From Diacronema lutheri (lineage: Eukaryota; Haptophyta; Pavlovophyceae; Pavlovales; Pavlovaceae): a stretch of DNA of 64,000 bases. The stretch covers positions 372,001 through 436,000 of the forward strand of contig JAGTXO010000020.1 in the NCBI GenBank assembly GCA_019448385.1, in the 5' to 3' direction. The translations under genes and the position numbers were made by a program. Numbering within the stretch: the stretch's first letter is position 1; each line of letters begins with the position of its first letter. The notes under the pieces are model-generated. The model had not been told where the DNA came from, searched no databases, and saw only the letters and a list, made by a program, of their open reading frames with translations. This document shows, in pieces, positions 666 through 36,397 of this stretch.

Positions 666-672
666 TTCAGTG

Positions 673-4455: not shown

Positions 4456-4851
4456 CTGCGGTGGACGGGGCGCGTAATGCACGGGGATGACAACATGCGT
4501 CGGTTGACGCGTGGGGCCCATGGCTGGGCCGTCACGCGCGCTGCGGACGAGCAAAGTGGCGAGGCGCGCGATGCGCTGCGGCGGGCGGATGCGGACGGGG
4601 CGGTGTGCGATCGGCCGCGCACCGTCGTACGGCTTGACAAAGCTGTGCCGCACGCAGCGAGGGTTTGCACGAGGAGACGGGCCGCCGATGGGCGCATCAG
4701 CGCAGCGCACGCGCGGCCGATGTGCGGCGCGCGGTGCCATCGGCGTGGGCACACGCGTGTCATCGCTGCTCGCGCAGGGACCGACGCGACGCGCACGCGT
4801 CGCGATGAAGGCGCGATGGCGGCGTGCGCGCGAGGTGCGTTCAAGAAGTGT

Positions 4852-6520: not shown

Positions 6521-7019
6521 GATCCCAGCCAGACCTTTGCCGCAAGGCCGGGGCCAAATTTGATTCGCCAATCAGCATGGGCAACAGGATTTCCCCCAAA
6601 TGGAAAAGTGTAGGGTATAGATGGTCAAGCCAAATCCGATCAGGGGCACGATCGCGCCCCGAGTGCAGCGCGGGCCGTTCGGAAGGACGTCCTTGTGAGG
6701 GAGCTCTTCGCGTTTGGCGAGCGGGGGAGCACGACGCGCAGCGTTGCTGCGGCGGCGTGCGGGCGGCGAGCAGCGGTCGGGCTGCTCGCGACGAGGCCGG
6801 AGCAGACGGCGCCGTGGCCGCCGGCGCAGGTGACGCGCGCCGACGAGCCGTAGCGAGCGTCCGTGATCCGCACGGCGGTTGGAGCGGGCCGGCTGGTGCG
6901 GCGCGCTCGGCCACGGGTGGCGGCGTGCACGGTCGTGCCGCGCGCGGCACGCGTCGCCAGCCGCGCGCGACCTGGGCAGAGCCCGCAAAGCGTCGACCGC
7001 TGCGCGGCTCGGCCGTGCG
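6521..7019. other. Intergenic, no gene seen
   Basis: About 500 bp lie between the start of the damaged copy 1 gene and the stop codon of the large polyprotein gene. Open frames exist on both strands but none has recognisable motifs. A less GC-rich patch at 6540-6650 may hold the promoter of copy 1 or the 3' end of the polyprotein gene. Confidence 0.5.
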
Positions 7020-9760
7020 TCAACGCCGGCCGCGCTTCGGCCCGCGCGCGCTGCCGCCGCCGGCACTGGCGCTGGCAGCTCCGCGGGCGGGGGTGCGGGC
7101 GCGAGAGCCGCCGCCGCCACCGCCGCCGCGCCCGCCGCCGTCGTCGCCACCGCCGTCGCCGCCGCCGCCTCCCCCGCCGTCATCGTCGTCGTCGCCGCCG
7201 CCGCCTCCGTCGCCGTCGCCGTCGCCGTCGCCCTCGCCGCCGCCGCCGTCGCCGCTGCCATCGTCGTCGTCGTCGTCGTCGCCCTCGTCGTCGCCCTCGT
7301 CGTCGCCGTCGCACTCGTCGTCGCAGTCGTCGCCCTCGCCGTGCACCATGCGCTCCTCACGCTCCCACACCTCGCCGCGCGCCCACCAGGCGAGCACGAG
7401 GGCAAAGCGCTCAGGCGTCGACGTGGTGTCGCGCCCGGCCGCGTGCGCCGCCATGTCGTGCACGTCGTAGAAGATGTTGCGCGCGGCGTTGTAGTCGCGG
7501 TGCACGGGCTTCTTGCCGCCGTTGCACGCCGGGCAGATGACGAGCGCGTGCACCGTGCGCGTGCCGCCCTTTGCCACGGGCAGGCGCGGGTTCTGCGCGA
7601 GCTCCGCGCCGCAGCGCTGCAGCCTGCCGCCCTTGGCGAGCCGCGGCATCGAGCAGTGCATCGACGTGTACGGCTCGGGCACGAAGACGGCCGCGACGCC
7701 GCGCCGCCGCAGCTCGCGCAGCAGCCCCACCTGGAAGGCGGGCGGCGCGCCCTTGGGCTGCGCGCCCTTGTGGTCGCGCAGCCACTTGCCCACGCACACG
7801 AGCAGCCGGTCGCGCGTCACGCCGTCGACACAGTGCGCCGCGATGAGCGCCTCGGCGACGCGCGCCGCGTTGGACCGCCCGCCGCTGTCGCGCCGCCAGC
7901 GCTCCTTCCGGCGCGCCGGCGCGTCGTACACGTGCTCGGCGGCGCGCTCGCGCACCCGCGCGCTCTCGCGGTGGAAGGCGATGTATTTGCCCGCGTCGAG
8001 CACCTTGGCGCTGTGCGCCTCGCCAAGCCGCGCCTCGTCCGCCTCCACGCTGAACTCCTCGCCGCGCCCGTCGGTGCGCACGCGCCGCCGCGCCGCGTTG
8101 GTCTTGGCCGTCTCGCGCGCAAAGCCCGCGGCGCGCGCGCGCGCGCGCTGCGTGAACTGCCGCCAGACGGCCGCCCGCCCGACGTGCGCAGAGTAGGTGG
8201 TGATGTTGCCCATGTTCGGGTCGGCCGCGACGACGACCGCCGCCTCGACGTCGATCGCCCGCCGCAGCTCGGAGCCGAGCGCGACGGCGATGCGCCCGTC
8301 CGGCCGGCGCCAGCGGTGCAGGACGCCCGAGCCGCCGGCCGGCGCCTGCGCCTTCGGCACGAGGACGGTCCCGACGGCGTGCACGGCGACGCCATCTGTC
8401 ACCACCGACTTGACGGGCTGCCGGCCCGGGAGCGGCACGCGCGGCAGCGGCGCGAGGCCAACCCACGAGCGCCGCGCGTGCCACGGCAGATCGGCCGGCG
8501 GCCGCTCGCGCCCGGCGTAGTCGAAGACGCGGTTGGAGATGTCGAAGCGCGTCGCAAAGACCGCGTACCTGACGCGCACGTCCGACATCGGCGGGGTGTT
8601 GCCGTTTGTGCCTGTCCACTTGATCGGCTCGCCATCGTGGTCGCGCAGGTCCAGCGCCTTGAGCCGCGCGCGCAGCTCCTTGCGCTCGTCATCCGAAAGC
8701 GTCACCCAGATGGCGCTCGCGGCGAGGCGCACGTTGCGCGGCACCTGCGCGCAGCGCGCGGCGCGCGAGCGCGCGGGCGCGTGACCAACCTGGCCGCGGG
8801 GCGGCGCGCACGGCGGCGGCGCGCGCGCTTGGGCGCTCGGCGGCGGCAGCGGCAGCCACGCCTCGCGCGCACATTGTGCGTGCGCAGCGGCGCCACATTG
8901 TACCGCGGCGGCCGTCCGGTCAGCTGCGTGTGGATGTGCGCGAGCCGGCAGAGCAGCGCCTGCCCCTCGGCCACGTGCTGCAGGGTGCGGATCTGCACGA
9001 GGAAGTAGCGCGTCGTGTGCCGGTCGTAGTTCCACCTTTTCGTGGGCGTGCACTTGTAGTCGATCTTGTGGAGGACCATGTCGGGCAGGTGGCGGTCGAG
9101 CGCGGCGGGGCAGCCGACGCGCGCGCCCTCCACGTCGCCGCGCAGCAGCCGCTCGCACAGCTCGCGCACGCGCGCGTTTCGCTGCATCTCGGGCAGCGCG
9201 ACGAGCGCCTCGTCGCGCTCGACTGCCGCGCGGACGACGTCGCGGAGCAGCCCGTTCACGACGCGCGATGGGTGCATCAGGCACGCGGTGGACACCTGCG
9301 TCGCCTCCGCCTCGAGGATCTCCGTGAGGCCCACCGCGCAGACGGGCTGGACGCCCTCGGCCATCTCGCCGACGGCGCGCGCCGTCGCCGCCTTGGTCTG
9401 CGCGGCGGCTTGCTCGGCGGGCTTGCCTCGGGGCGCTGCACCGTACGTGCTCTCGTCCTTGTGCCAGCCGATGGCCGAGAAGATCGCACGGACGGATCCC
9501 TTGTCCATCGTGGTCGACGTGTGCACGCTGGTCGACGGGCCGCCCGACGCCGCGCCGACGGCCTGCGCGCTCGCCACCGCAGCCTCGTCGCGCACCACCT
9601 TGTTGATGACGCGGTACGCCTGTGTCGTGAGCCTGTGCACGGCCGCCGCGATGCGCCGCAGCTCCTTCCGCGCACCGGGCTGCGCCGTCACCGCCTGCGG
9701 CCCCGCGTTGAGCGTCGAGCGCTTGACCACGAAGCCCGGGAGCACGCTGCCGCGCGTGCG
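7020..9760 (-). other. Fanzor/TnpB-type RuvC nuclease domain
   Basis: The C-terminal part has the three RuvC acidic residues: Asp in VVAADPNMGN (codon 8222-8220), Glu in FVPEPYTSMHC (7676-7674) and Asp in HRDYNAARNI (7496-7494). Between the last two is a zinc-ribbon set of cysteines ending CPACNGGK. The tyrosine-threonine-serine segment and RDxNAARN are signatures of TnpB and its eukaryotic relatives. The N-terminal part, to about 9760, is in exon 3 (it includes MHPSRVVNGLL and YNVAPLRTHN), and a 128 bp intron (8745-8872) separates it from the RuvC exon. Fanzors are RNA-guided DNA nucleases in eukaryotic transposons. The tail is Asp/Gly-rich and ends GPKRGRR, a possible nuclear signal. Confidence 0.85.
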
Positions 9761-12700
9761 CGCCGTCGCGCCGCCGGCGGCGCGCGCGCTCGGCGCAGCG
9801 GGCTCGTCCACGCGCGCGCGCTCGACGCCGCGCGCGCGGGGAACGCTCGGCGCGCGCGCGCCCGCGGCGTCGCGCGCGCTCGCGGCGGCACCCGCCGCGG
9901 CGCGCTTGCCCGCGGCGCCCGACTCGCCGTGCGCGCGAAGCGGCGCCGACGCCAATGCCGACGCCGCGCCCGCGCCGCCGCTGCCGCTGCCCGATCCGCC
10001 CGCGCGCCGCTTCTGCTCGTCGCGCGTCTTGCGGAACTGGGCGACGAGGTCGCTGCTCACGTTGGCCTCAGGCTCCCACGTGTCGGCGCTCTCGTCGTAG
10101 CCCCGCCACCTGATCCGGAACTGGAACGTCACCTTCTTGCCCGCCTTGCGGCGCTCGTCGACGACCGCCTCGACCTCGTACGTGCGCGCCTCCTCGTCGA
10201 CGCTCGCGCCCGCCGCGCTCGCGCCCGTGTCCGGCCACCCAGCGACCGTGCCGCCCAGCCTCTCGGCGGCCGCGCGCAGCTGCCGCTCGCGCTGGGCGGC
10301 CGCGGCGCCTCGCGCGACCAGCGCGGGCAGCATGCCCGCGCCGCCCGCGAGGCCGTGCGCGCCGACGCTGGCGGTCATCAGCGCGTCGAGGCACGCGAAC
10401 GTTGCGAGCGCACGCGCGCCATCGTCGCCGCCGCGCGGCTGCGAGCGCACGACGGGCGATGGCCGCGGCTCCCCCTCGGCCGCGAGCAGCGGCCAGATCG
10501 CACTGGCCAGCGCGACGGCATGCGCGCCGACCGCGACGGCCACGTCCGCGTCGAGCGGCGCAAAGTCGTAGCGCACGAGCGCGGCCGGGCGCGAGTCGTC
10601 CGTCGGCCGGTCGGCGACGAGCAGCCCGACCGGGCGCGGCGGCTCGCCGGACGGCGCGGCGACGGGCACGCAGAGGAGCACGACGAGCAGGCGCGGCGTG
10701 CCGCCGAGCAGCGCGCGCGCGGCATCCGCCCCGTCGGCTCCGCCGCGCGCGGCCGCGGCGAGCAGCTCGGCCGCGCGCGTCGGGCCCAGCGCCGTGCGCG
10801 CGTCCTTGCGCGCGCGTGCGCGGGCCGTGTACGCGGCGCAGGCGTCGTCGAGCACCGCCGCGCTGGGCGCGGTGCCAGTCGTCGCCCACGCGCGCAGCGC
10901 GTCGCGCACCCGCGTGACGATCGCCTGGTCGACCGCCGCCTCGCCGGCAGCGTGCGCCGGCGCGCACGCCGGCGGTGCGGCGGCAGGCGCGAGCGCGGGC
11001 GCGCCGTCGGCGCCGTCAACGCCGACGGCGCCGTCGGCGCGCCGCCACGCGAGCTTCGCCTCGATCTGCTGCCGGACGGCGTGGCAGTGCCGGTCGATGC
11101 CGCGCGCGTCGTCGAGCGCGGCCAGCGCGTCCTCAGCGGCGGGACGGCCGCTCGCGTCCGCGACGGCCTGCAGGCAGAGCAGCGCGGCCGCACGCGCGTT
11201 GCACGCGCTCTGCGGCTCGGGCGCGAGCGCGAGCTCGAGCTCGAGCGGCGACGCGCCTCGCGCCGCGGCGATCGCGTCCATCAGCACGTCCAACCGCTGC
11301 ACCAGCGCCCTGTGCGCGTCGCGCGGCGCGCCCGTCGACGGCGCGCGCGAGCGCGTCGCCAGGAGCCCGAGCGCGCGCGCCGGCGCGCCCGCCGGCGTGT
11401 GCAGCACGAGCAGCGCCGCGCCCGCCAAGCTCGCGTTGCGCGTGACGAGCGCGAAGATGCGCGTCGCCTCGTGCGCGCCCACCGACGCCCAGATCGCAGC
11501 GCGATCGGCGTCCGTCTGCGCGTCGCACAGGTCGCGCACGTCGTCCGGCGCGAGCAGCGCGCCGCCGCCGGCGGAGCGCGCGACGATCGCCCGCGCCTCC
11601 GCCACGAAGACGGCCTGCGGCAGGTCGGCGTGGCGCGCGTCGACGATGGCGCGCGTCGCGTGCACGCCGAGCTCCACGCCGCGGTAGAAGGCGCGCGCGT
11701 TGGCCGCGCGCGCGTGCGCCGGCCGTCCGTCCGCGTTGCGCCTCGCGCGCGCCTGCTTGCTCGTGCGCGCGAGGCCGTCGCGTGGCGGTGGCGGCAGCGT
11801 GGCGAGGAAGCGCGCGGCGGGCGGCGGCGCGCGCACGCCGCGCTGCCGCCGTGCGATGGCCGCGAGCCGCCGGCCCGCCGCGCTGCCGCCCGCGCCGACG
11901 TGCTGCCAGCGGTTGAGCGCCGCCGGTGGCGGCGGCGGCGGCGGCGCGGCGGCGGGCGGCGGCGCGACGGCGGGCGGCGGCGCGGCGGCGGGCGGCGGCG
12001 CGGCGGTGGGCGGCGGCGCGGCGGCGGGCGGCAGCGGCGGCGGCGCGGCGGCGACGGCAGCACCAGTCGGCTTGTCCGCCCACGCACCCGAGACGCTGTC
12101 CCAGGCCTTGCCCGGTGGCGCGCGCCCACGCGGCCGCGGGTGGCGGGCTCGAGCGGCGGGGGGCGGGCGGCCGGCGCGCCAGTCGAAGACAGGTGCAACC
12201 GTGGCGGCAGGCGCCGAGTGCAGCGCGTCGGTCACAGAGCGCGTGGTGCGCGCGGCGACCGTGGCGCGCATGGCGGGCGGGCGGTGAGCAGCGCCCGCCG
12301 GCGCGCCGGCGGGCGCGGCAGCCGGCGCGCCGGCGGGCGCGGCCGCCTCGAGCCCGGCGGAGGCGCCGCGCTTGCGCTTGCGCGTGCCGCCGCGCGTGCG
12401 CCTGCGCGCGCGCCCGCCGCGCGCCCGTGCGGCCTGCGCGTCGCCAGCCGCGTCGCCGGCCGCGTCGCCGCGCCGCACGTAGACGATCGCGAACGCCTCC
12501 TCGCCGGTCCCGTCGACGCCGCCGCGCGCGCGGCGTAGGACCGACCGCCACTGCAGCCGCCGCGCGCGGCCGGGCTCGCACGCAAACCAGCGCCCACCGC
12601 GCCTGACGACGGCCACAAAGTCGTCGTCGCGCCGCCCGCGCCGGCGCGTGCGCAGCAGCACGCACTGCACGTCGAGCCAGCCCTCGTGCCAGTCGGCCGT

Positions 12701-15700
12701 GCTGGGGGCGACGCGAATCGACTGCGGGAGCTCGACGCCAAAGCCGGCGAGGCGCACGATGTGCGCGACGATGACGCTCGAAATGGCGGGGGCGCTCGAC
12801 GGGTCGTCCGCTGCAGCGAGCACCGCCTCGCCCCAGTGCTCACGCGTGACGCAATCCGCGTCCTCGACGTGCACGTGCGCCACGCTCGCGCCGAGCTGGT
12901 GCAGCAACGCGCAGATGTCGGCGTCGACCGTCCTCTCCTCCTCGGCCGCCTCGGCCGTGCCGCGGGCGGCGGCGTCGCCCGCCGGCTGCCCGAGGTACGC
13001 GATCGCCCGCTCGACGGCCGCGCGCTCCGCACGCGCTGCGCTGGCGATCGCCGCATTGCCGACGGGCGCGCGCAGCGCCGCGATCGCGTCTTGCAACGCC
13101 GTCGCGTCGCCCGTCGCCGCCGCCGCCGTCACCGCCGCCGCGCTCGCGGTGCCGTGCGCGACGGCGTGCAGCGCGGCGGCGCGCGCGGCGGGGATGCGCC
13201 CGTCCAGCGCGAGCACGAGCGGCGGCCCGGCCGGCGTCTGCTGCCGCCGGTGCCGCCGGCTCGCAGCCGGGTGGTCGGTGCGCGCGCGCTCGAGCCGCGC
13301 GCGCCGCTCGACGACGCGCGCCCAGAAGGCCTGCACCCTCGGCTGCGCGAATGCAAGCCAGCCGGCGCCGCGCGTCACGACGTGCACGACGATCCGGTCC
13401 TCGTGCCTGAGGTACTGCACGTAGAGCGCTTTGCTCACGCCGAGGACGTGCATGCCGAGCTGCAGCTGATCGCGGTGCGGCTGCGGCGGCCCGTCCTCGT
13501 GCGCCGTGGCGCCCGCCTTGGTGAGCGTCTTCACCTCGACGAGGACCTGCTCGTTGTTTTCGGGGAGGATGGCGAGCCCGTCCGGCGAGAAGGCGAACGG
13601 CGCGCTCTTGTCGTGCGGGTCCGCACGCACCATCGGCAGGTTGCACACGACGGTGATGCCGTACGCGGCCGCCAGCTTGCGCAGCGCGACGGCCTCGCCG
13701 AGGATGCCCGCGGTCGTCGCCTTGGTCCGCACCTCGCGCCGCCGCCGGTGCACGTACTCGTCGGTGAGCGTCTCGTGCGCGACGCCGGCGTTGTCGTTCA
13801 CGACGTCGCCAACCTTGCTGCCCGTGACCTCCTCCCATCGCTCGTCGTGCCAGCGCGGGCTGCGCTGCGCGGGCGCGCCCGCGCCGACGGCGTCGAGCAC
13901 GCGGCGCAGCGCTGTGCCGTCGGGCGCAGCAGGCACGCGCGCGCGGTCCTGGGCCTCGCGAGCGTCGAGGACGCGGCCCGTAGTGGAATCTTGGGGTAGG
14001 TCGAGCTTGCTCGCCTCGCCGTAGCGGCTCTCCAGCTGGCGCGGTGCGTCGGCAGGGCCGCCGTCCGTGCGCGCACCCGACGCGCCCGCCAGTGCACGCG
14101 GCGCAGCGTCCGAGGCGCCCGCCGCGCCCGCGCCGCCGCCAATCGCGCCAGCGCACGCGCGCGCCGCGACCTGCGGACGGCCAGCCGCAGGGGCCTCGTC
14201 CGCTCGGCCGGCCGCTGCGTCGGCCGTCCGCTTGGCCACCTCGCGCACGTCTCCGAGCGCGAGCGTGGCTGGCGCCGTCGAGCTCCCGTGGCGTTTGTTC
14301 CAAAACTCGAGCAGCCCGCCAAGGAAGGGCGTGCCCGTCGGGCGGTCCTCGGGCACCTCCGCCAGGATCGCGTCGACGCGCAGCGCGGCCGCCACATCGC
14401 AAAACGCGCGCGCGGCGCGCGCCATCCGCTCGGCGCGCGCGCCGCCGTCGTCCGCCGCGCGGCGGATGGCGTGGCTCACGTGCGCGACGCGGAGCGAGAC
14501 GACGGCGTGCGCCGGCGCGCCGGCGCCCGTGCCGAGCGTGTGCCGCCGGATGGCCAGCTGCCCATCGCCCATGCGCGGCGGGAGCGACGCGCACGCCGCG
14601 ACGGTCGTCGTGCCGGCCGCGCTGTCGCACAGCCAGCTCGCCTCGCCGCCGCCCGCAAACTCAAAGGTCGCGAAGCCCTCGCGGCCGAAAAGCGCGACGA
14701 AGTGGTCGAGCACCGCCTTGTTGATCGCGCGCGCCGCCGGCCGCGTCGATGCGCCGCGGGCAGCGCCACCCGCCGCGCCGCGCGCATCGCTGCACGTCGC
14801 AGGGCAGGTGCAGCCGGACGCGCGCACGCCGTCCGACCGCGTCCGCGGCAGCTCGAGCTCGCGCACCTTGGGGCAGAACCAGAGCGGGTTGGACGCCTCG
14901 AGGCACAGCACGACGAGCCGCCCGTCCGTGCCGGCCAGCGCGCGCGCGTCGCGCAGCAGCTCGACGGCGAGCTCGGACGTCGCCGCGTGCACCGCCGGCT
15001 CGCCCGTCGCGCGGTCGGGCGGGAAGAGGCCACCGCCGACGAGCGGGCTGGGGCAGCGGCCGAGCATCACGAGCAGCGGCGGCGGCGGCGTCTGCGGCGC
15101 CTGCTGCCCGACCGCAGCCGCCGTCAGCCCGGCCAGGTCGGAGCTCGTGCGGAGGGCCTTGAGCGCGACGCGCGAGCCGGTGCCCGCCTGCTCGGAAAAC
15201 GTGGCGAGCATGGCGCACGTGCTCGCCCTCGCGCCGCACTGCCAGCTGACGCGCGCGAGGAGGCCTTCCAGCGTGTCGTTTTCGCGCGGCCGCGTGACCG
15301 CGTCGAGCGCCGCCGAGTCGAGCTGGAGGCTGCCGGGCGTGACGCACAGCACCGCCTCGTGGTAGGCGCGCAGCAGCTCCCTCGGCAGCTGCTCGGCGGG
15401 CGTCGCCGCCTGCCCGCCCACCCACCGTGCACCGTGGCCGCCGTCGCCCGCGCCCGCGAGCCGCACCGCCGGCCCGCCCGTGATCGCCGAGGTCGGTGGC
15501 GTGCCGAGCGCGTCGACGAGCGCGCGCACGGGCGCGACACGCCTGCGCGCAGCGTCCGCGCCGACGGCGAGCGCGGCGATCCGAGCGCCCTCCCATGCGC
15601 GCTCCCTCGCGTCGTCCCGCGCGGCCGCCGGCGCGGCGCCCGGCCGCGCGCCGGGCGGCACCGCGCACGCCGCCGCGACGACCTCCGCGCGCGCGCCGGC

Positions 15701-17561
15701 GGCGTCGGGCGCGTGCAGCTGCGCGAGCGCGCCAGAGAGCGCGGCGGCCGAGCGGTAGCGGCCGTGCGCCGCGACGAGCGCGTAGAGCACGCGCAGCGCG
15801 GCCACGCCCGCCTGGTCGGGCGCGTCGTCAGCGATGCGCTCGACCTCCCACGTGCGCGTGGGCGGCGGGCTGCCGTCGGCCGGGTCCGGACGCAGCGCCC
15901 ACGCGCGCTCGACGATCGCGTTGAACACGCCGTGCGCGGCGCCCTCGTCAAACTCGGCGGCGCCCGCCGCGTGCGCGCACCACCCGTGCACGCGCGACGT
16001 GGGCGCGTCCACGGCGCGCTGCACGACGAGCACCGCCGGCCGGTCGACGCAGCCGAGGCTCACCGCCGCGTGCTTGCCCTCGAGCAGCGCCGCCGCCGCA
16101 GCCTCGACCAAGGCGTCACCAGGCGCGTCGCCGACGACGACGGCACAGCCGTCGCCGTACTCGGCCTGCATCGCGGCGACGCACGACGCGACAAAGTCGC
16201 CGCCCGCGGCCGCCGCGTGTCGCGCCGCCAGCATCCGGCGCGCGATGGCAAGCCAGACGTACTCGGCCGGCGCGCGCGCGGCGCGCGCGCGAGGCGCGCC
16301 GGCCGCGCCGCGTGCGCCCGCGCGTGCGCCTCCAGCGGCCGCAACGGCCGAGGCGGCTGGAGCGGCGGTGAGCGTGCGCCGCGCGCGCTTCGCCGGCCGC
16401 GTGATGGGCGATGCACCCGCCATCGCACCGCCCGCAGCAGCCGGTGCGGCCGCCACAGCGCCCGCCGCAACGCCACTCGTCACGACGCCCGTGGCGGGCG
16501 GCGCGGCGTCGGACGCGGCCGCGTCGACGGGCGTCGCGCAACTACCGCCAGCGGTCGCGGACGCGCCCGGCGACGCGTCGGCGAGGAGGTGGCGCAGCAC
16601 GCCGCGCGCGAGCGCGACTCGCACGGCGAGCGTCAGCGCGCGCAGGCGGTCGGAAGGCGAGGCGTCGCGCTCGGCGTCGGCGGACGTGGCGGCAGCAGGC
16701 GGGGCGGCGGGCGGCGCGGCGGCGGACTGGGCGGCCGCCGGCGCAACCTCGTCGGCCTTGGCCAGCCAGACGAGCCCGGCGACTGCGAGCACGACGCTGT
16801 ACGCGCCGACATCGTCACCCGCAACGCGCGCCAGCCGGGCGTGGGCGTCGGCCTCGGACACGGCGACGCGGAAGAGCACGTCGTCGCGGGCAGCTTGCTC
16901 GGCAAACTGACGCAGCTGCTTGGCCATCGTCACGCCGGCGACGCACGCCTCGCCCGCCTCTGCCTCGACCTGCTCGTCCTGGCCGATGGCGGACGCGCCG
17001 GCCTCGGCGCCAGCGTCGAGTGTCCGGCGGCGCTCGAGGGCAAAGCCACGCACACAGACGCTCTGGAGGCCGCCGAGCGCGCCCGCCTTCTCGTGCAGCG
17101 CGCACGACAGCTCGACCACCGAGTCCACGCGCCTCGCGGCGGCGCCCCCCCGCTCGCCGCGCGTGGCCGCGCGCACGACGAACACCGTGAATTGCGCGCG
17201 CTTCGCCGCGCGCGCCGACGCGCACGCGTGCTTCAGGAGCCGGCAAAGCGCGGGCCTTTGCGCCGCTGCGCCCCGCGTGCACAGCAGCAGTTGGCCGCGC
17301 TCGTCGCCCAGCTCCTGCTCGACGGCGGCCTCGAGCGCGTCGTCCGTCAAATCGCCGTGCTCCGTCGAGGCGAGCGCGCGCGCAGCCGCGAGCGCCAGCT
17401 CGCCTGCGCCCGCGCGCCGCCGGCGGCGCGCATCGGCGGGCGCGTGCGGCGCCGACGCGTGTGACGACGCCGCCGCGTCCGCGCGCGCACACGCGGCGCG
17501 CAACGCCTCGCGCGCCGAGGCGGCCGCGCGCGCCCTGGGCGCGAGCTTCAAGAACGTGCGC

Positions 17562-17612
<51 letters not shown>

Positions 17613-20600
17613 TCGCCCTCGTCGCCGGCACGCGGCGGCGGTGGCGGCGGTGGCGGCGCGGCCACGGCGGCGGCAGCAGCGGCAGCGGCGGTGGTGGTGG
17701 CGGCGGCGGCGCCCAGCGCGGGCGGCGGAGGTGGCGGCGGCGGCGGAACGGCGGCAGCGGCGGCGGCGTCTGCGGCGGCCTTGGCGCCGCGCGTCTGCCG
17801 CGGCGCTTCGGCAGCGCGATCGCGGCTGCCCCCGCCGCGCACCGCGCCCGCCCCGGCGCAGGCGCCGCTCGGCGCACGCCCGCTGACCGCGCCAGTCAAC
17901 GCGACGCGGAGGTGCTCGCCAACAGCGTACATGTCCGCCACGCTGAACGTGCGCGGCGCGGATGCACCGCCCGCCGCAGCGAGCGCGGCGTCGTTGAGCG
18001 CGCCCACCACGGCGAGGCCGCACGTCGCGCCACGCTGCGCCGCGTTGTCGAGCAGCCGCGCGCGGCGCACGGGCAAGACGTCGAGGCCCGCCGCGTGCAG
18101 CGTGGCGGTTATCGACCTGGCACGCTTGAGCGCCTGCCTGCTCGGCGACGCGAGCGTGTCGACAAGCACCGCGTCGTAGCGATGCTCGCCCGCGCGCGCG
18201 ACGCGCACGAGGCGCAACGCGGTGAAATGGCCGGAGGCGGGCGGCGTGCCATCGTCACTGCCCGCACCGCCGCGCCCGCCCGGCGGGCTCCACATGCCGA
18301 TGACCGCCTGCGTCGTCGCCTCGCTGTGCAGGCGGTGCAGCAGCGCGGCGCGCTCGGCGCCGTCCTGGAACACCGCGGGCTGAGCGGCAAGCGGTACGTG
18401 GCAGACGCGCCCTTCGCCGGCCTGCCCGTGCACGCGCAGCACGACCTCGCAGCAAGCGTCCACAGTGGAGGCGAGCATGTCGCCGCCCGCAATGCAGTCC
18501 ACCTCTGCCTGCGGGATGCCGGCGCGCGCGGCGGCATCGGCCAGCCGGAGCGCAGCCGCGTCGCCCGCCCACGCGAGCAGCGCCGGGGCGGCGGACTGGA
18601 CGTCGCGCTGCGCCACGGCGGGCTCGGCCGCGGCGGGCTGGGCAGCGGCTGGCTCGGCAGCGGCGGGCTGGGCGGGGGCTGGCGCGGCGGCGGTGGGCTC
18701 GGCGGCCGACGATTGCGTGGCAGGCTGCGACGCGGCCAAGGCGGCGGTCGGGCGGGCGGCGGAGGCGAAGGCGGCCCATGCGGCGGCCGAGCACACGGCG
18801 ACGAGCCAAAAGGCGGTGGCTGCAGACGGGCGAGCGGCCGGAGCAATGGCGGCCCGGACGGCAGAGGCGGCGACGACACTCGCGAAGATGCCGACGGCGC
18901 ACCGGACAGTGGCGACGGCGACGGCGGCACCGGCACACGGGCGGCGGTGGGGGCTGTCGGGCTCGGCGGCAGGCTCGGCGGCATGCTCGGCCGAGGGCCG
19001 ATCGGTGCGCGACGGCGGGCTGCGACTCGCGCGGCGGAGCGGCTGCGGTGCGTGCTGGCCGCCCGTCGCGCACCTGCGCTTGCGCTCGCGGCGCGCGTCG
19101 CCGCCACGCAATCGGCGGCCGACAGCCCGCTCTGACCTGTCGATTGATCTCCGCAGCCGGTCGCGCGCGCGCTTTGCCGCCCGCCGTGCGCGCCGCGGCG
19201 GTGCGCGCGGGCACTGGTCGGGCGAGCTGCGCGCGGCAGGCTCGCAGCAGCCGCCGTCGCGTGCGTGCGCGCAGCCTCGGTCGCACGGCGCGCAAACGAG
19301 GTCGTCGGCGCCATCGACGCCGTCGAGGCCGTCGCCGCGCGCTGCGGCTGCGAGCGCGCGTGCCACGCCGTCGTCGCCGGCCGCCGGCGCCGCTGCGGCG
19401 GCCGCGGCGTCGGCTGCACGGCGCTCGGGCTGCGGCTCGAGCGGCGGGACGGCGCCGGCCGCCGCGGGCGGCGCCGTGTCGAGCGGAGCAGCCGCGGCGC
19501 GCGCGCGCGCGCGCGCACCCTTTGCGCCTACCGCGAGACGCCACCCGCGCGGGCGCCACGCGCGCCGCGGCTCGGCGGCCGCGCGACCGGCGGTGCCGGG
19601 CGTGGCGGCGAGCGCAGCGCTCGAACTTGCGTCTGGCTCGGTGGCGGCGAGCCGGCGCAGTTGCCGCGCAATGCAGGGCTGCACGTCGAGGTGCGCCTCG
19701 TCGAGTCGCGAGAGGAGCTCGCGCGCGCGAGTGCCGAGCGCGGCGCCGTCGCACTCGGCACGCGCGCCCGCCGGAGCCACCGAGCCTTCGGGGTCGCGCG
19801 GCGCGAGCAGCTCGCGCGCAGTCGCGAGCAGCTCCGCCTGCTCGGCGGTGGGGATGCAGGCGCGGCGCAGCGCGAGCTCTGTGTGCGCGGGCAGGTGGGC
19901 GCCCACGGCCTCGGCGTGCATGAGTAGCGCGCGCGCCTCCGCAGGTGCGTCCGCCTCGCCCATCTCGGACGCGGCGAGCACGCCCGCCGCCTCAGCGGCG
20001 AGCGCGAGCCGCGGCGACGCGAGGTCGCGCAGCGACCGCAGCAGGTGCGGAGGCAGCGCGTGGCCACGCGCCTTGACGCGCTCGAGCAGGGCGCGCGCGC
20101 GCGCTGCATCGTCCGCAGAGCCCAGCGCGCACTGCTCGATCAGGCGGCCGGCCGCGCGCTTGTCCTCGCGAAAAAGCTGCTCGCGGTGGAGCGCGCGGCG
20201 GGTCTCGCGCTTGGCGAGCGCGTCGGCACGCGCCCTGCAGCCCTCGTCGGCGGCGGCGGCGAGCTCGGCAACGCCGCCAGGCTCGGTGGCGGCGGCAAGC
20301 GTGGCGGCGACGGCGCCTACCTCAGCGGCAGCAATGCGGTCGTCAGCGCGCTTGGCGGCAGCGCATTTGACGGCGGGCTGGTCGGCTGGCTTGGCGTCAG
20401 GCACGGTGGGAGGCTGGGCCGTGGACTGGGCGGCGGGCTCGGCGGTGGGCTTGGCAGCGGCTGGCTTGGCGGCGGGCTCGGCGGCGGGCTGGGCGGCGGG
20501 CTGGGCGGCGGCGGGCTCGGTGGCGGGCACGTCCGCCTCGGCCAACAAGAGCGGCTCGAAGCGGTTGCTCGCGCGCATGCTGGCGCGCGGATGGCTCGGC

Positions 20601-22456
20601 GGCAGAGCAGCGGGCCGAACGCCAGCGCCCGCGCCGAGGCCTGGCCGCGCTGGCTGCCAGGGCTGCTCGCGCTGCTCGCGCTGCTCGCGCTGCACGCGCT
20701 GCACGCGCTGCTCGCGCTGCTCGCGCTGCTCGCGCTGCTCGCGCTGCTCGCGCTGCTCGCGCTGCTCGCGCTGCTCGCGCTGCTCGTGCTGCGGGCACCA
20801 CGTGCGCTTGCGCCAGTTGTGCTGCGCATCCCCGCCCTCCGCTGCCGGCTCAAAATTTGCGCATGCCCAGATTTGGCCGCGCCCAACAATTGGCGTGCGC
20901 TGGTCCTGCGCGCGGCCGGCGGGCAAGAGGTCGGGCGGGCGGGAGGCGTAGGGGATGCGTGAGGGTGCTGCACGCTATACGCGCAAACTTTACCTGGCGC
21001 GAACGCAAGCGCCGGGCGCCACGCTGTGGACAGCGGACGGCGTGCGCGTGCGAGGCACTCACCGCCATTGGCAATGCGCGCGTCGCGGAGACAACTTGGC
21101 GGGCCTCGCACGCAGCTGGGCCGATCGCCGCCGCAGAGGTGTCTGCAGCCGTCTCCGCGATGCCGATCGTCGCATCTGTTGGCACCGCTGCCATCTGCCG
21201 CACCCGCGACCAGGCTGCCGACAGGGTCGGCGCGTCGGGCGCCGAGCTCGGCCACGCAGGCGATGCGGCCGACGGCGGTGACGCTGAGCCCAGCGCCGGG
21301 TCCAACGGTTCCGCGTCGAGCCGGCTGTAGAAGAGCATGCTCGCACCACTTGCCCACGCCAGCGCGTCGGACTGAGACAAGTTGTGCATCTGCGCGGGCA
21401 ACGCGCGTGCGTGCGGCAGGCGCGCGGCGCGAGCTTTCAGGCCACGCGCGCGTGCCGCGCGGGAGGACGGGGCGGCTGCGGCTGCGATCAACCGCCGGTC
21501 GCGGCGCCAAGCGGCCGTGCGCGCCGCCGCACGTTGTCGTCGTCGCACAGAAACCAAGCCCCGTTGCGGAGCACGATGGCGACAAGGTGCCCGCTCGTCG
21601 ACTCCTCGCCCAAGTGCACGACGGCGGCGACGAGGAGGTAGTCGCGCCCGCCGAGTAGCAGCCGCGGCGCGCACACGAACGCGTGCTTGTTCTTGCACTG
21701 CGAGCCATTGCCGCGCGTCGTGCGCGGCACCTCGACGGCAATGCTGGCTGGCATGAGCACGTCCGAGCGGCACGCGTCCGGGCTGCCACCCTGCGGCGGC
21801 CCAGCGACGCCCCCCAGAGCGTGTGCGAGCGTGCGCGCCGCATCGCCGCCAATGCTGACGAGGATGGCGATGCCCTCACCGCGCTCGCTCGAGGCCACAG
21901 CGATCGGCTCGAGCACTACGCGTCTGTCGTCTTCGAAGGCAGCAGCGAGCCCGGGCACTCGGCCGAGTAGCATCTGGAAGAACTCAGCAGCGTCCTGCTG
22001 CGTCCCTCGCGTGCCACGGCCCAAGATGACGTCGACGACGGACACAAGACACAGCTGTGCCGGCGCCTCGGTGTCCTCGAGCAGCGTGCCAAAGTCCCGA
22101 AAAAGCGCCTTCTCGACTCTTCCCGCACGGCGCGAAGCGGAGCGGGGCATCGGACGGAGCACGTTCAAGGCGACGAGCGATTGCGCGAGGGCGTTCACGT
22201 AGCACGCGTTGCCCTCGTTTTTCACGCCTGCGCCGCGCCGCGCAGCGCCGGGTGTGCGGGGTGCGCACGCAAGGTTTACGGCGGGTCGGAGAGAGGCCGA
22301 CTGGGAACGCGCCGAACCCGGCGAGCCGTGCAGGCGCTCACCACGCGGCACGTCGGGCACTCTCACCGGCCACATCGGGCCGATGAACGCGCCCCCCACA
22401 GGCTGCCGGCCGACGACTCGGAAGTTGCTCCAGGCGCTGCGCCGTGCACGCGTCAT
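7020..22456 (-). CDS. Giant polyprotein: USP + Ulp1-like + YqaJ + chromodomain + Fanzor nuclease
   Basis: Four exons join in phase: 22456-21533, 21389-20994, 20905-8873 and 8744-7020. Introns are 143, 88 and 128 bp, with donors GTGCGG, GTAAAG and GTGCGC and acceptors all ending GCAG. The product is about 5,025 residues. In order it has a ubiquitin-specific-protease-like domain (1-330), an Ala/Pro/Glu-rich region with REQ repeats, an Ulp1/adenain-like protease (about 1325-1405), a YqaJ-like exonuclease (about 2787-2972), a chromodomain (about 4008-4065) and a Fanzor/TnpB-type nuclease (about 4380-5025) with an acidic tail and a basic end. Exon 3 alone is stop-free for 12 kb. The start is uncertain: 22456 is an in-frame ATG, the frame stays open to 22711 without another. 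The domain set suggests a mobile-element protein processed by its own proteases, which is inference. Alternatively several genes are adjacent, though the splice phases argue for one. Confidence 0.65.
7095..7335. repeat. GCC/GTC triplet-rich coding repeat
   Basis: Irregular GCCGTC and TCGTCG triplets encode the Asp/Gly-rich tail of the Fanzor part on the minus strand. The run is low-complexity and likely variable in length. Confidence 0.8.
10030..10200 (-). other. Chromodomain
   Basis: The segment begins TYEVEAVVDERR, then FRIRWRGYDESADTWEPEANV, the aromatic-cage pattern (Y, W, W) with the classic W-x-G-Y spacing and the E-x-N-V end. Chromodomains bind methylated histone tails, and in retrotransposons and other elements they target integration to chromatin. 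It sits directly before the Fanzor part, so it may guide that nuclease; this is inference. Confidence 0.85.
11925..12060. repeat. Short tandem repeat encoding Ala/Pro-rich linker
   Basis: Units near GGCGGCGGGCGGCGGCGCG are repeated about six times and translate to Ala-Pro runs in exon 3 of the polyprotein. They probably form a disordered linker between modules. Confidence 0.7.
13310..13865 (-). other. YqaJ / lambda-exonuclease-like nuclease domain
   Basis: The segment opens with WEEVTGSKVGD, then GILGEAVAL (the conserved Glu of helix one), FAFSPDGLAIL (metal-binding Asp) and LVEVKTL (E-x-K). It continues with PHRDQLQLGMHVLG, the D..Q.Q motif of YqaJ recombinases. All signature residues of the PD-(D/E)xK fold in this family are present. 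Such enzymes resect DNA 5' to 3' and act with annealing proteins in phages; in eukaryotes they occur in mobile elements. Confidence 0.85.
17555..17770. repeat. GGC triplet repeats encoding poly-Ala and poly-Pro
   Basis: Runs of GGC on the plus strand give alanine and proline stretches in the polyprotein between the Ulp1-like domain and the region beyond it. Low complexity. Confidence 0.7.
17985..18235 (-). other. Ulp1/adenain-like cysteine protease domain
   Basis: The order His, Asp, Gln, Cys of clan CE proteases is visible: GHFTALRLV with His at 18229-18227 (residue 1333), AVLVDTL with Asp at 18160-18158 (1356), and QRGATCGLAVV with Gln at residue 1397 and Cys at 18022-18020 (1402). The Gln-to-Cys spacing of five is one short of Ulp1. 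Members cut SUMO precursors or viral polyproteins. Assignment rests on the motif and its order, not on overall similarity. Confidence 0.6.
20655..20792. repeat. 9 bp tandem repeat (GCTCGCGCT) encoding REQ repeats
   Basis: About fifteen near-perfect 9 bp units. On the minus strand they encode Arg-Glu-Gln triplets near the start of exon 3, probably a charged helix. Two units carry a G-to-A change giving Val in place of Glu. Confidence 0.9.
21313..22240 (-). other. USP (C19-type) deubiquitinase-like domain of the polyprotein
   Basis: The Cys box reads VKNEGNACYVNALAQSL, with catalytic Cys at codon 22204-22202 (residue 85 of my model). QQDAAEFF follows, as in USPs. The His box has SGHLVAIVL (His codon 21589-21587, residue 290) and then WFLCDDDN. 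After the 143 bp intron the frame continues to SMLFYSR, the usual end of a USP fold, which is strong support for that intron. Known USPs cleave ubiquitin from proteins; here the domain may process the polyprotein or remove ubiquitin in the host. All three catalytic positions appear present. Confidence 0.85.
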
Positions 22457-22711
22457 GCGCGCGCTGTTGCGGGCTACGCAGCAGAAACGACGGGGGAATA
22501 GGCGAGCGAGGGTTGGGCGCAGATCAGCGTGGTGGCGCGGCAAGACGAGCGCGCGCCGGGCGCCTGGCGCGGAGGCGCCCCGCGCGAGGACGCGAGCCGC
22601 TTCTCGCACCGGACGGGCGCCCACGCGCAAACCGGCTTTAGAGGGCCAGATGGATGGTGGCCGATGACGAATCAGCGCGGCACCCGCCTTTGAAAAAGGG
22701 CGTCGCGGCAC

Positions 22712-23460
22712 TGCCCGAAAGCGGTACGGACGAGCCGGGCGCCATGCATGGAACGATGCGACGGCGGCGTGAGCGCGGGACGATCTTGCCCAGGCAATTG
22801 TGCGCGTTCAGCGGGCGGCGCGCGCGTTGCGCGTGACGGGGCGCCGAGCGGCACACCGGCGGGGACCCGCTCGCCGCTGCCGTGGCATCCTCCGCTGCCG
22901 GCGTGCTGGCACGCACGCGCATTGCCGGCGCGAGGGGACGGCGAGTGCGCCTCGGCCGAACAGGCGCGAACGTTACGCCCGAGCGCGTGGCCGAGCACCG
23001 GATGGAAGCATGCTTCGTCATGCGGCGGCGACCCGCGCCGATTGCACGCAGCGCCGGCCTAGGCGCGCATCCGCCCGACGCGGATTTGGACGACGCGTCG
23101 ACCGGCACGCCGAGCGTCTGCGTCTGCCTCGCGGCCGGTCGCGCCGGCCCCTCTTCGGCTCGCGGCCGCACGTGCGCCGCGCGCCGCTTCGGCGCGCGGC
23201 GCGGCGCGCCTGGAACGCGCGGAACATACGCGCGGTGCGCGGGCACGCCCGCAACGCGCCATTTTAGCGCGAGCAGTTCGGCAAGCTTGCAGCTCGCGAG
23301 CAGCCGGGCATGTGCCGCGGACACACAGTTCGCTGTGTGCGCCGGCCGCGACGACACGGCGTAGCGGCGCGAGGCTGGCGGCCGGGGCCACGGGCGTAAT
23401 CGTGGCGCGACGCCATGGCATGAGTAATAAATCCATGAGTAATAAATCACGGGCCCAAGC
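22712..23460. other. Region upstream of the polyprotein gene, no clear gene
   Basis: About 750 bp between the polyprotein gene and the alanine-rich tail of the helicase remnant. A minus-strand frame covers it, but I see no motif. It may contain the promoter and 5' exon of the polyprotein gene, since no strong start codon is visible in its first known exon. A direct duplication of ATGAGTAATAAATC lies at 23419-23450. Confidence 0.5.
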
Positions 23461-24149
23461 TCACGCGCTGTACGGCCTCTCCCGCATGGCGTGTCGGATC
23501 CGCCCCGCAGCCAGGACCGCATTTTCGCTCGGCCACGCAGCGGACCACGGCGCGTTGTGCGCGCCCGGCGCGAGTGGTGCGAGTGGCGGGCCAAGCCGCG
23601 TCGCCCACGGAGCCCGCCCCCGGCTCGGCGGCACCGCTACCGCTTGCTCGCCGGGCCGCGCACCGCCGTCGCCGCCGCTGCGCGCTTGCCCTGCTTGCCG
23701 GCAGGCGGCGGCGGCGGCGGCGGCTGAGGTTGCGGCAGCGGCGCGAGCGCGACGCCGGACGGCGGCAGCGCCGACGGCACGCGCGCGGCGGCGACCCACG
23801 CGGCGTCGGGCAGCGCGCCGGCTTGAGGCCCCTGCTTGCCGGCCGCATTGGCGCCGCCCTGCGCGCCCTAGAAGGGCGCGCAGGTACGCGGGCCAGTCGC
23901 GCGGCGCGCGGTGTTGGCGAGCACCCGCCGGCTGCGCGTCGGCCGCGAGCGGCGCGGCGGGCGTCGCGCCGGCGGGTGCTGGGCAGCACCGCGCGCCGGC
24001 GTCGCGCCCGCCGCCAGCGCGCCGCCCGCCGCCGGCGCCGCGCGCGCCGTCCGAGCCGCGCCCGCCGCGCCCGCCGCCACCGCGCGCCGCCGCCGCGCAT
24101 TCGCGCGCGGCGGCGACGGCGGCCGCGGCGAACGCCGCCGCCGCCGCCG

Positions 24150-25760
24150 CCGCCTCGCCACCGCTGACCGCGCGGAGCACCTCTTTGAAGACGACGGTGC
24201 GCGTCACAGGGTCCGGGCCAAGCGCAAAGCGGATGCGCGACGCGTGCCCGACGCGCGAAGCGGCCACGTAGAGCTGGCCGTGCGTGAAGCACGGCTCGGC
24301 GAGCCACACGCCCGCGCACCCGAGCGCTTGACCCTGCGCCTTGTTACGCCGGCCGCACCGGGAACTGGCGGTGCAGCCATGCAAACGCGAACGTGCCCTC
24401 GTCGGGCGAGTGGTGGTCGATGCGCGCGATGAGCACGGTGCTGTCGCGCCCGGCGGCCGCGCCGGGTCGCGCGCACTCGAGCAGCCGGCCGCCGGCGCGC
24501 ACGCCGCGCACGACCAGCCGCGTGCCGCTGCACAGCCCCTCGCCGAGCGAGAGGAGGCGAGTGGCTACGAGCTCCGCCGGGTAGGCCGAGACGCCTCGGG
24601 CAGCTGCACGGGATCGAGCGGGAATGCGCCGGGCATGGCCCCCGCAGGCGGCACCGCCGCGGGAAAGGCGCCGTCGCCGAGGCTGCGCGGCAGCTTCGCC
24701 CACTCGCCCGCGCCGAGCGCGTCGCCCGTGTCGCGCGCCGCGTTCGAGGCGCGAGAGTTCTCGACCAAGGCGTACGGCCGATCGTGCTGCCACGATGCCG
24801 AGTACTCGAGGCAGGAGCGCACGATCTGCGCGCGCGAGCCGCGCCGCACCACCGGCAAGCACTGGCAAAAGTCGCCGGCGAGCAGCAACGTCTTGCCGCC
24901 GAAGCGCTCGTCGACGCCCGTCACGTCGCGCAAACACCGATCGAGCGAGTCGAGGCGGCCCCGCTTCTGCATCGGCGCCTCGTCCCCCACGATCATTCGC
25001 CGCGGCGGCCACGGAGCGCCCGCGCTCGGAGCGCGGCACGCCATTGAACGGCTTGCCCGTCCGAGTCGGCGCCGACGGGCACCTTGAAGGTCGAGTGGAA
25101 GGTGCGGCCGTCGGGCAGCAGCGTGGCGGCGACGCCCGAGGACGCGCACACGACGACCGCGTGCCCATCCGCGCGCACGGCGGCGATGATGGCGCGCTCG
25201 ACGAACGTCTTGCCCGTGCCGCCCGGCGCGTCGCAAAAGTGCAGCCGGTCGCCCACGCCGCGCAGCGCCGAGTCGACGACCGCGCCGTGGAGCGCGCGCT
25301 GCTGGCCGGTCTCGGTCATCGCCGCGCGCGCCGCCGCCGCGCTCGCAGCCTGCTCGGCGCGATCGTAGCCCTGCGCGCGCGCGAGCTCGCGCCCGCCCGG
25401 CCCGGCCGGCGCGCGCGCCGTGCGCAGACCGGCCACCGCCGCGAGCGCCGCCGCGCGCTCGCGCTCGTCGGGCACGTACAGCCCCGTGGAGTCGAACGTG
25501 TCGGCCCAGGCGGCCACGCTGTACGAGGCGAAGGCGTCCGAGCCGGGCTGCGGCCGCTGCTCGGCGCGCTTCGGGAGCATGACCCCGCACACGTTCCACT
25601 TGGTGCCAAACATCGAGCCCGTGAGCCCCGTGTAGACGCAGTCGAGCTGCGTGGCGATGGCGCAGACGTCCTCGTGCCGGATCTCGTCGACCGGTTCGCC
25701 ATCCGTGGCGTCCAGGATGGCGACTGCGCCCGGGCCGTGACGCCGCGGCGTCGTTCGGCT
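24150..25760 (-). pseudogene. Decayed Helitron-type Pif1 helicase
   Basis: Four consecutive segments in shifting frames match the helicase half of Helitron proteins. Segment 1 (to about 25045) has CDAPGGTGKTFV and ASSGVAATLLPDGRTFHSTFK. Segment 2 (25000-24565) has VGDEAPM and LLLAGDFCQCLPVV. Segment 3 (about 24605-24344) has SAYPAEL, GLCSGTRLVV and RQFPVR. Segment 4 (24341-24165) has NKAQGQAL, THGQLYVAASRVG and VVFKEVL. Frameshifts lie near 25020, 24600 and 24345, and at the last the usual AFAMTI stretch is deleted. No Rep/HUH domain is visible upstream, where sequence breaks down near 25760. The gene is dead. An alanine/glycine-rich open tail runs on to 23461. Confidence 0.9.
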
Positions 25761-25874
25761 GCGTCACGGAGGAGCGCCATCCGTGCGCCACGGAGGAGCG
25801 GCAGGACCACGACGCGGCGTGACGCTGGACGACGCCATGCTGTCGAGGCGCCATGCTGTCGAGCCGCCATGCTC

Positions 25875-26210
25875 CGAGGCGCCGCCGCTTTCTAAAAGGG
25901 TGTAGGGTGTAGGGTGTAGGATGCAAAACAAGCCCTCCCCACATTTGGGCCCGACGTCATTCCTTCTTTCGTCACAGCGTCATTCCTTCTCCCCCCTATG
26001 GGACTTTCATAACCGTACGTATCCTACACCCTACACTATGCAAATACCTAGAGAATAGATACATCCTACACTAAGTAAAGGTACTCGTATGTGAGTAACG
26101 TCACGGCTTCGAAGAAGGAATGACGTCGGGCCCAAATGTGGGGAGGGCTTGTTTTGCATCCTACACCCTACACCCTACACCCTTTTAGAAAGCGGCGCCG
26201 AAGGTGGGAG
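25875..26210. mobile_element. Foldback (MITE-like) element with ~90 bp inverted ends
   Basis: The segment 25880-25962 recurs as reverse complement at 26118-26206, including three GTGTAGG-type units and CCCACATTTGGGCCCGACGT. The 155 bp centre is AT-richer and contains further TACACCC units. It has no coding capacity, and both ends are followed by GCGCCG-type sequence. It lies exactly where the helicase remnant loses its N-terminal part, so its insertion or a rearrangement around it may have truncated that gene. Confidence 0.75.
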
Positions 26211-26615
26211 GATGCCACCCGTATGCGCGCGTTTGAACGTGCGCGGACGGCCGTTGGCTTCGCGCCCTTTCGCCCACGGTTTGCGCGCCAACGGACCAGT
26301 CCTCCGCGGGCGCCGCGCATCGTCTCAGGGGCGGTCGGTGTGGTACGCCGCGCGCATCGTCAGCGCCGCGGCGTCGAGCTCGGCGAGCGAGGGCGCGTAC
26401 GTGACGCCGCTCAGCACCTCGTCCGCGCCCGCCCTCGTCGCGCTCGCCGCCTCCGCAGTGCGCGCAGGCGGCTTCGTGACGGCACGCGAGGCCACGCCGC
26501 GCGCCGCAGGTGCCTTCGCGCGCTGCATCGTCTGTCTGCCGGTCCGACGCGCTCTGCTCTGAACGAACGGACGGCACGCCCGACGAGATCTCGTCGCGTG
26601 CACGCTCGCACAGCA

Positions 26616-27447
26616 TGTACCCCCAGAACGTCTCCGAGCTGCTGCCCGACGAGATCTTCGGCGACGAGCTGCTCGTCGACCGGCACTACCGCGTGCGCAT
26701 CCTTCAGCGCGTCGCCCGCCGCCGCGATGCGGCCGAGGCCAACTTTTGGCTCGACGGCGGGCCCGCCGACTCGGTCGTCGGCGCGTGCATGTGCGGCCGA
26801 ATCTACGCGCTCAAGTGCATGGGCCGGCTCGTCCGCGGCGCCCGGATCCTCGCGCTGCTGCGCAAAAATGTGGCGCTCGCCACGTGCCGCGCACACCTCA
26901 TGGGCCACATGCTCCAGCGCATCGTCGGCGACAGCGGCGTCGCGCGGCTGCTGCAGCTGGTTGCAGCTCGTTCGCGAGGATCACGACACGCTCAACGCCG
27001 AGCACCAGGCCTTGGAAGCACAGCATGACACCGGCCAAGTCATGCGACGGCATGTGCGCGCGCGCCGACGCGCTCTCCAAGGACCTCGCACGGGCGCACG
27101 AGCACGCTCACAAGCTCGATGGCTATCTGGTGTGGTGCAGCGAGCGCCTCGGTGAGAGTGACTCTTTCAACGGAGCGCTCGAGAACCTGAACACGCGGTG
27201 CAGCATGAGATGTGCTGGCTCCACGCCGAGATGTCGTCGCTCGTTGCGAGTTCGCCCGAGGCTTACGCGAACGACAGCGAGGCCACCGACTTCAAGGACC
27301 ACGGCGTGTGCGTCGAGTTCGATGTCTTCAACCGCGACGGGGTCGAGGGCGCGCCCGTGCCCGCGACCGCGCCCACGAAGGCAGAGCCGGGCATCGAGTC
27401 CGAGTGCATCGCGCCCGCACAGGCAGAGCCGGGCAGCGAGTCCGAAG

Positions 27448-27480
<33 letters not shown>

Positions 27481-27660
27481 GGCAGAGCCGCGCACCGAGC
27501 CCAAGTGAGCCAACGTGCCGCCGAACTCGCCCAAGCTCTCGTCGGTCGACAGTCAGGCCACCGAGTACAAGACCTCCTACGCGAACTCACGTGCTCGCCA
27601 CCTGCAACGCCTCGAGTTTACGCACGCGTTCGAGTCTGTGCAGGCCGAGGTCGCTTAGCC
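26616..27660 (+). pseudogene. Decayed gene of unknown function
   Basis: A coherent frame begins with ATG at about 26616 (MYPQNVSELLPDEIFGDELL) and runs to about 26965. The text then continues sensibly in another frame (REDHDTLNAEHQALEAQHD), then a third (DLARAHEHAHKLDGYLVWCSERLGE, about 27080-27190), then a fourth (HEMCWLHAEMSSL onward to about 27450). At least three frameshifts without splice sites suggest a pseudogene. The middle looks helical, the end Pro/Arg-rich. I do not recognise the family. Confidence 0.45.
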
Positions 27661-28199
27661 AAAGCGCGCCAAGGTTCCGGCCACCGGCGCATCCAGCCGC
27701 TGGCTGCGCAACACGGCGGTGCGCAACACCCGCAGCTCGGCCAACGGCAAGTAGCGCGCCGGCGCAGCGCACGGTATGCCGCGGCGAGCTCAGTCGCGAA
27801 GAGTGTCCGACTGGCCGCGCCCTCCACGGGGTGCACGCGCACTCGGCGCGGTCCGGTCAGTCAGGGGGCCTCAGCTTGCGCGATGCCAGTTGCGAGCCCC
27901 CCCGGAATCCGCCATTCTATTCTACTAGGCGTAAATCACCCAAGCCCTTCCGGTCGCCCGCATTCCGGGGTCGGACCCTCCGTCGGCCCGGCTCGGGCCC
28001 TCCGTCCGCCGCGCCCGCTCGACCCCGAATTCTACTCCAAATCGGCCGGTCAGGAGGGTGTCTCGGTCCTAGGCTCGTCATAGGCCTCGCCCCGACCCCT
28101 CGAGCGCTCATTGGCTGGCTTTTAACCCTTGATTGTACGACCCGGGTCGTACTCTCAGCCTTACACTGGCCGGACCAGCCCGGACCGCGCCCTATATAG
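27661..28199. other. Intergenic region without recognised gene
   Basis: About 540 bp with short repeated CGGGTCGGACCCTCCGTC-like phrases at 27970-28030 and a TATATAGA at 28193-28200 immediately before the first copy of the 126 bp repeat. No convincing reading frame. Confidence 0.5.
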
Positions 28200-36390: not shown

Positions 36391-36397
36391 CACTGAA

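Follow-up and report, generated by a model that had tools for sequence, protein, structure and literature searches.

A large, recently spread mobile element of Diacronema lutheri with an exonuclease, a chromodomain and a Fanzor nuclease in one long reading frame

A 64,000-nt stretch of the genome of the haptophyte Diacronema lutheri (GCA_019448385.1, contig JAGTXO010000020.1, positions 372,001–436,000; here called the window, to which all coordinates refer) had been read, from its letters alone, as coding at 7020..22456 for a single-transcript polyprotein of a deubiquitinase, an Ulp1-like protease, a YqaJ exonuclease, a chromodomain and a Fanzor nuclease, belonging to a large mobile element or a domesticated system. 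The locus raises the questions of what kind of DNA carries this combination, whether the domains are made as one protein, and how such DNA may move. The genome of strain NIVA-4/92 has been reported to comprise 43.50 Mb with 73% G+C and 22.9% repeats, and the element is not described in the parts of that paper covered here (PMC8379373); the assembly searched holds 43.49 Mb in 103 contigs.

Extent, copies and forms of the element

Positions 6615..28199 of the window (strand not assigned) are a single 21.6-kb copy of a large mobile element; these limits count the terminal G at both ends, and outside them the flanks vary by copy. At the left end, seven of eight fetched copies align from 6615 and the eighth from 6607, with an identical junction in all eight, and their flanks differ save for two copies with a common flank. 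The right end, located via a near-identical copy on contig C85, a right-end search and the reading of junctions, lies 5.7 kb past position 22456, the edge of the feature originally marked. That feature is therefore part of the element, but its limits miss both ends and a helicase described below.

The termini are sharply defined. At the left terminus G/TATA (6615..6619, plus strand), G precedes TATAGATGG in 17 of 17 distinct flanks (18 left junctions read), and at the right terminus TATATA/G (28193..28199, plus strand), TATATA occurs in all 12 junctions read and is followed by G in ten and C in two. Both junctions were read for 10 of 12 paired copies, plus earlier loci; one single-base left flank, where the contig stops, was left out of the counts, and since junctions were located by terminal sequence, copies with altered ends escape. 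No target duplication beyond TATA is visible at the junctions read, and no empty, uninserted site was found. Judged by position, twelve contigs seem to start (C1, C5, C6, C10, C12, C26, C29, C80, C83, C90, C91, C92) and one to end (C8) within tens of bases of an element end. This could come from the way the assembler treats repeats or from linear copies that occur free.

With a 1,001-base query from the Fanzor region, at least 40 full-length matches were found at about 100% identity, counting the window copy itself; of 309 candidates, 40 were scored. All 40 left ends scored, among 267 candidates, were identical across 181 bases, and the right-end search returned 99–100% identity (40 of 263 candidates scored). 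Twelve left/right end pairs were found among the matches listed, six of about 31.0 kb, three of 21.6 kb, and one each of 26.3, 29.4 and 32.2 kb. Copies so alike point to recent movement. The suggestion of a large mobile element is thus borne out by sharp ends, differing flanks and many near-identical copies, which for the same reasons make a domesticated system unlikely.

The window copy represents a short form of the element, as opposed to a long form of 31 kb. In a comparison resting on one long-form copy, 500-base blocks from 6615 to about 17.6 kb are 97–100% alike, followed by 88–89% up to about 18.6 kb. Next come 2.3 kb of the window (18.7–21.0 kb) that the long form lacks, whose own unshared sequence amounts to about 10 kb. 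From 21.0 to 25.7 kb, 400-base blocks are 86–98% alike, a piece near 25.7–26.2 kb is inverted, and 25.8–27.8 kb, up to the limit of the fetched long-form stretch, is 99.9% alike. Judging from these block-wise identities, private stretches and the inversion, the short form is a mosaic relative to the long form, with near-identical outer parts and differing middles. A query private to the short form gave at least 32 full-length matches, 30 of about 100% identity, one of 97% and one of 92%, the rest being fragments (40 of 163 candidates scored); a query private to the long form gave at least 40 identical matches (40 of 186 candidates scored), and a helicase (Pif1) search gave at least 120 matches scoring equal to the long-form copy (among 150 scored of 414 candidates). 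If all were full length, 120 long and 30 short copies would together occupy about 4.4 Mb, or one tenth of the genome.

The surroundings of the window copy are themselves repetitive. The element is flanked by a long inverted repeat (1–4851 and 32209–37062, 100% alike; 5488–6474 and 31202–32188, 95%), of which a further diverged copy lies in pieces from 37027 to 41872. A repeat with CTAACGACGCTT (28200–28448) adjoins the right end and is present at other element flanks too, and at 49831–51051 a 19-base unit is repeated about 64 times with 99% identity. Host-like genes for a DEAD-box helicase and an ArfGAP are located at 29331–30932 and 40888–44157.

The long reading frame and its domains

The core of the coding content is a minus-strand frame (8702–20926) open for 4,074 codons. 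It runs from the Ulp1-like region into the Fanzor and is far above chance, the maximum length in 300 first-order Markov resamplings of the stretch being 1,450. In order, it contains the Ulp1-like motif, three unmatched stretches, the exonuclease, three further unmatched stretches, the chromodomain and the N-terminal half of the Fanzor; the six stretches have no match in Pfam or PHROGs. The proposed joining of four exons into one frame of 5,025 residues could be reproduced, with an ATG start and without inner stops.

Upstream of this frame, the first exon of a ubiquitin-specific protease (USP, family C19; 21533..22456, minus strand) contains the Cys and His boxes in one open reading, matches PF00443 (UCH/USP) at 5.7e-15, above the cut-off, and aligns with the long form. 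Excision of the 143-nt intron 1 (21390..21532, minus strand), inside which the long-form copy has a one-base gap, brings CDDDN together with a USP-like C-terminus that contains SDALAWASGASMLFYSRL, so that splicing would complete the fold (DDDN to LFYSR), as had been predicted. The second exon (20994..21389, minus strand) supplies this C-terminal strand LFYSR; its 3' limit is uncertain. For the proposed intron 2 (20906..20993, minus strand), the evidence consists of GT-AG borders and phase; a GTGAGT site at 21062 is common to the window and the long form. The predicted 128-nt intron 3 (8745..8872, minus strand) has GT...AG borders and a junction within a stretch that runs uninterrupted in another of the genome's Fanzors. 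Divergence lends it no support, because in an older copy the intron is 96.1% and the adjacent exon 3 96.9% alike. Of the three introns postulated, sequence comparison supports 1 and 3, but not 2. The single-transcript polyprotein likewise stands in part: one frame connects the Ulp1-like region with the Fanzor, but the joining of the USP is not established. In the long-form copy, exon 2 without further splicing reads through to a stop, and about 2.7 kb separates this stop from the next frame on the minus strand that has a coding-like composition.

The Ulp1-like cysteine protease (17876..18607, minus strand) is assigned at the level of a motif. Its H-D-Q-C pattern, which was composed after being seen in the sequence, occurs once per copy and nowhere else in the frames scanned, and the region has no profile or structure match to Ulp1 (C48). 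A tandem array of degenerate Ulp1 domains, suspected by eye, received no support from single-sequence comparisons of ten stretches. The YqaJ/lambda-exonuclease (RecE-like) domain (13274..13999, minus strand) is matched across its length by profiles, namely PHROG 434, RecE-like exonuclease (5.7e-17), TIGR03033 (3.5e-7, positions 3–151 of 153, 30.4 bits against a cut-off of 68) and PF09588 (4e-4, 21.1 bits against a cut-off of 22). The chromodomain (10007..10183, minus strand), in frame with the N-terminal half of the Fanzor, matches PF00385 at 6e-12 (45.7 bits, cut-off 25.1). Of the five domain calls of the sequence-only reading, the USP, YqaJ, chromodomain and Fanzor calls thus agree with profiles, whereas the Ulp1-like call is without a profile match.

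The N-terminal half of the Fanzor, at the end of exon 3 (8873..9745, minus strand), aligns with the N-terminal portion of a different Fanzor from this genome, and its profile search was without match. The C-terminal half, exon 4 (7020..8744, minus strand), comprises the RuvC parts, a zinc finger and an acidic tail. It matches the Cas12f1-like TNB profile at 1.7e-6, the TnpB model at 0.024 and the best relevant solved structure at 0.31. Fanzors are defined by a RuvC D-E-D triad with an alternative glutamate six residues ahead of the zinc finger (PMC10711439). The corresponding residues are found in VVAADPN, VPEPYTSMHC (E-x6-C) and HRDYNAARN, in an alignment that includes two other Fanzors from this genome (one represented by a part), which together with the TNB match upholds the Fanzor call. 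RuvC-I reads DPN instead of DPG, a motif that is nearly exclusive to Fanzors, but not absolute (PMC10711439).

The Fanzor is located at the element end with its 3' side facing the terminus, and a 405-nt stretch (6615..7019, minus strand) separates its stop from that end. Published guide RNAs are placed 3' of the Fanzor and run from the element into the flank (PMC10711439, PMC10432273); by position, the 405-nt stretch is where one would be expected. Its folding, however, does not exceed that of shuffled or resampled controls, and in two older copies the stretch is more diverged than the coding part, so that a guide RNA in this stretch is unsupported.

Two further Fanzor loci came to attention. 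A Fanzor on contig C86, 15 kb from an intact Pif1 frame and at first taken as a relative, is a different Fanzor beside unrelated frames. A second Fanzor family, recognized by an equal score of 43.9 bits at at least 13 loci (including L050, C85:59500–66500), is distant; in the copy read, a frame of 1,779 codons includes a long repeated extension on the N-terminal side, and this copy is without chromodomain match to the window.

Outside the long frame, a Pif1-type helicase (24568..25956, minus strand; PF05970, 2.7e-23) is split across two frames, the second spanning 24996–25763. The split also occurs in the long form (L028), and about 120 long-form-like copies have an equal match score among the matches listed; the cause may be a break that became fixed, an intron that escaped notice, or programmed frameshifting. 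An open frame of coding-like composition on the plus strand (26480..27025) belongs to no known family and is without relatives, and an SSB-like domain guessed to precede the helicase had no relevant match. None of the ORFs scanned has a Pfam match to a transposase, and a tyrosine-recombinase pattern was not found. An insertion enzyme could hide in the six stretches of the long protein that lack a Pfam or PHROGs match.

Comparison of the short and long forms, covering the USP exons, the Ulp1-like region and three neighbouring stretches, gave a dN/dS of 0.43 for the Ulp1-like region (changes at 34 of 195 synonymous and 42 of 516 other sites; Fisher p 0.0006). The three adjoining stretches had values of 1.39, 2.61 and 0.86, from 4 to 13 changes each, and USP exons 1 and 2 of 0.82 and 1.53. 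The exon 1 comparison met two stop codons and gaps of 6, 1 and 2; the long-form USP frame is nevertheless open. Against four older copies, the C-terminal half of the Fanzor showed dN/dS values of 0.87, 1.01, 0.88 and 1.27, and the N-terminal half one of 0.95 in the single older copy that has it. Values near 1, as for dead copies, give no indication that the Fanzor is under purifying selection; selection for function is therefore seen, among the parts compared, in the Ulp1-like region only. In the older copies on contigs C37 and C59 (L055, L057, L051, L060), the upstream part is missing in both: one becomes similar from the edge of the chromodomain (window 10191), the other from window 8200.

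Possible modes of movement

Tentatively, with a probability of about 0.45, we regard the locus as a large haptophyte DNA element, recently spread, that enters DNA at a TATA core and in which RNA-guided cutting and repair aid copy-back and persistence. Recombination at a short core is proposed because the ends are fixed at TATA without a longer duplication. A short direct repeat at both ends without longer duplication is what characterizes Cryptons, and a short target core is common to IS607 and Crypton-type recombinase elements (PMC10711439, PMC3627910), from which the present element differs in that a serine or tyrosine recombinase was not recognized and the core is TATA. The insertion enzyme would be an unrecognised one within the element, or be supplied in trans. 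The position of the Fanzor at the element end, and the published guide RNAs that run into the flank, suggest that the Fanzor, guided by RNA read from the element end into the flank, may cut the corresponding empty site of the sister chromosome or of the homologue; cutting of the sister chromosome has been considered to promote spread (PMC10432273). Once exonuclease and helicase had processed the break, repair would bring a copy of the element back in. In this scheme the long protein would be cleaved by the protease, the chromodomain would keep the Fanzor on chromatin, and degradation of the products would be prevented by the USP; guided cutting may in this manner be coupled to resection and chromatin targeting, as the sequence-only reading had supposed. 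Counting against this best explanation are the lack of a recognised transposase, the unsupported guide RNA, the Fanzor dN/dS of about 1, the DPN motif, the split helicase and the absence of an empty site. A farther-reaching version, in which the element is selfish DNA that dispenses with a conventional transposase, so that RNA-guided cutting beside TATA, together with its own resection and helicase machinery, lets host repair copy 21–31 kb in, cutter and resector arising from one frame, appears quite improbable.

Mobilization in trans is doubtful, but a serious competitor to TATA-core entry with guided copy-back. Here, the element would be non-autonomous or semi-autonomous and would depend for its movement on a recombinase from another locus of the genome; the genes that it carries would serve maintenance only. 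Copies mobilized in trans are usually short, whereas this element is long, coding and abundant, and its unmatched protein stretches may conceal the enzyme. The lack of a recognised transposase in the ORFs scanned fits such mobilization, as do outer parts that are near-identical between forms with differing middles, which is expected if the ends are recognized; Fanzor elements without a transposase between their ends have been reported (PMC10432273).

Helitron ends read TC...CTRR. The ends of the present element differ from this rule, no HUH-type pattern was found in any frame of the two copies scanned, and the helicase is divided between two frames. These points count against a Helitron-like, rolling-circle element that gained the Fanzor, exonuclease and proteases and would move as single-stranded DNA via a Rep-helicase; this reading is judged unlikely. 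What it would account for is the Pif1-type helicase, which Helitrons share, the lack of target duplication beyond TATA, and a hairpin predicted close to the 6615 end (7 bp, 28 nt away), and some Helitrons carry Fanzors (PMC10711439, PMC10432273). Very improbable is an integrated double-stranded DNA virus or Polinton-like element. A size of 21–31 kb, the helicase, the RecE-type exonuclease and the proteases would suit it, and such elements in protists have a literature; but capsid, packaging ATPase and DNA polymerase had no match in the selection of ORFs scanned, and viral contigs scanned with four element proteins contained no relatives.

Relation to known systems and significance

With the Fanzor-bearing transposons of eukaryotes, the element shares the RuvC triad with the alternative glutamate, the position of the Fanzor at the element end and the many copies (PMC3627910, PMC10711439). 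It differs from them by the chromodomain and RecE-type exonuclease in the Fanzor frame, the unrecognised transposase and DPN for DPG, and its 21–31 kb contrast with about 2.1 kb of the studied Spizellomyces Fanzor locus (PMC10432273). The exonuclease domain is shared with phage RecE/lambda exonuclease recombination modules, as the match to PHROG 434 indicates, but it resides in the long frame of a eukaryotic element, and no annealing-protein partner was seen among the ORFs scanned. A literature search retrieved no publication joining Fanzor and YqaJ, and in none of the other papers listed does the title or the opening of the abstract mention such a combination. Fanzors in transposons are known; the domain combination, the size and the lack of a recognised transposase set the present element apart.

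Fanzors are RNA-guided nucleases whose benefit to the elements that carry them is still an open question. A Fanzor sharing its frame with an exonuclease and a chromodomain, in an element that moved recently, makes a cut-and-copy role testable in a culturable alga, and the element points to a natural nuclease-exonuclease arrangement.
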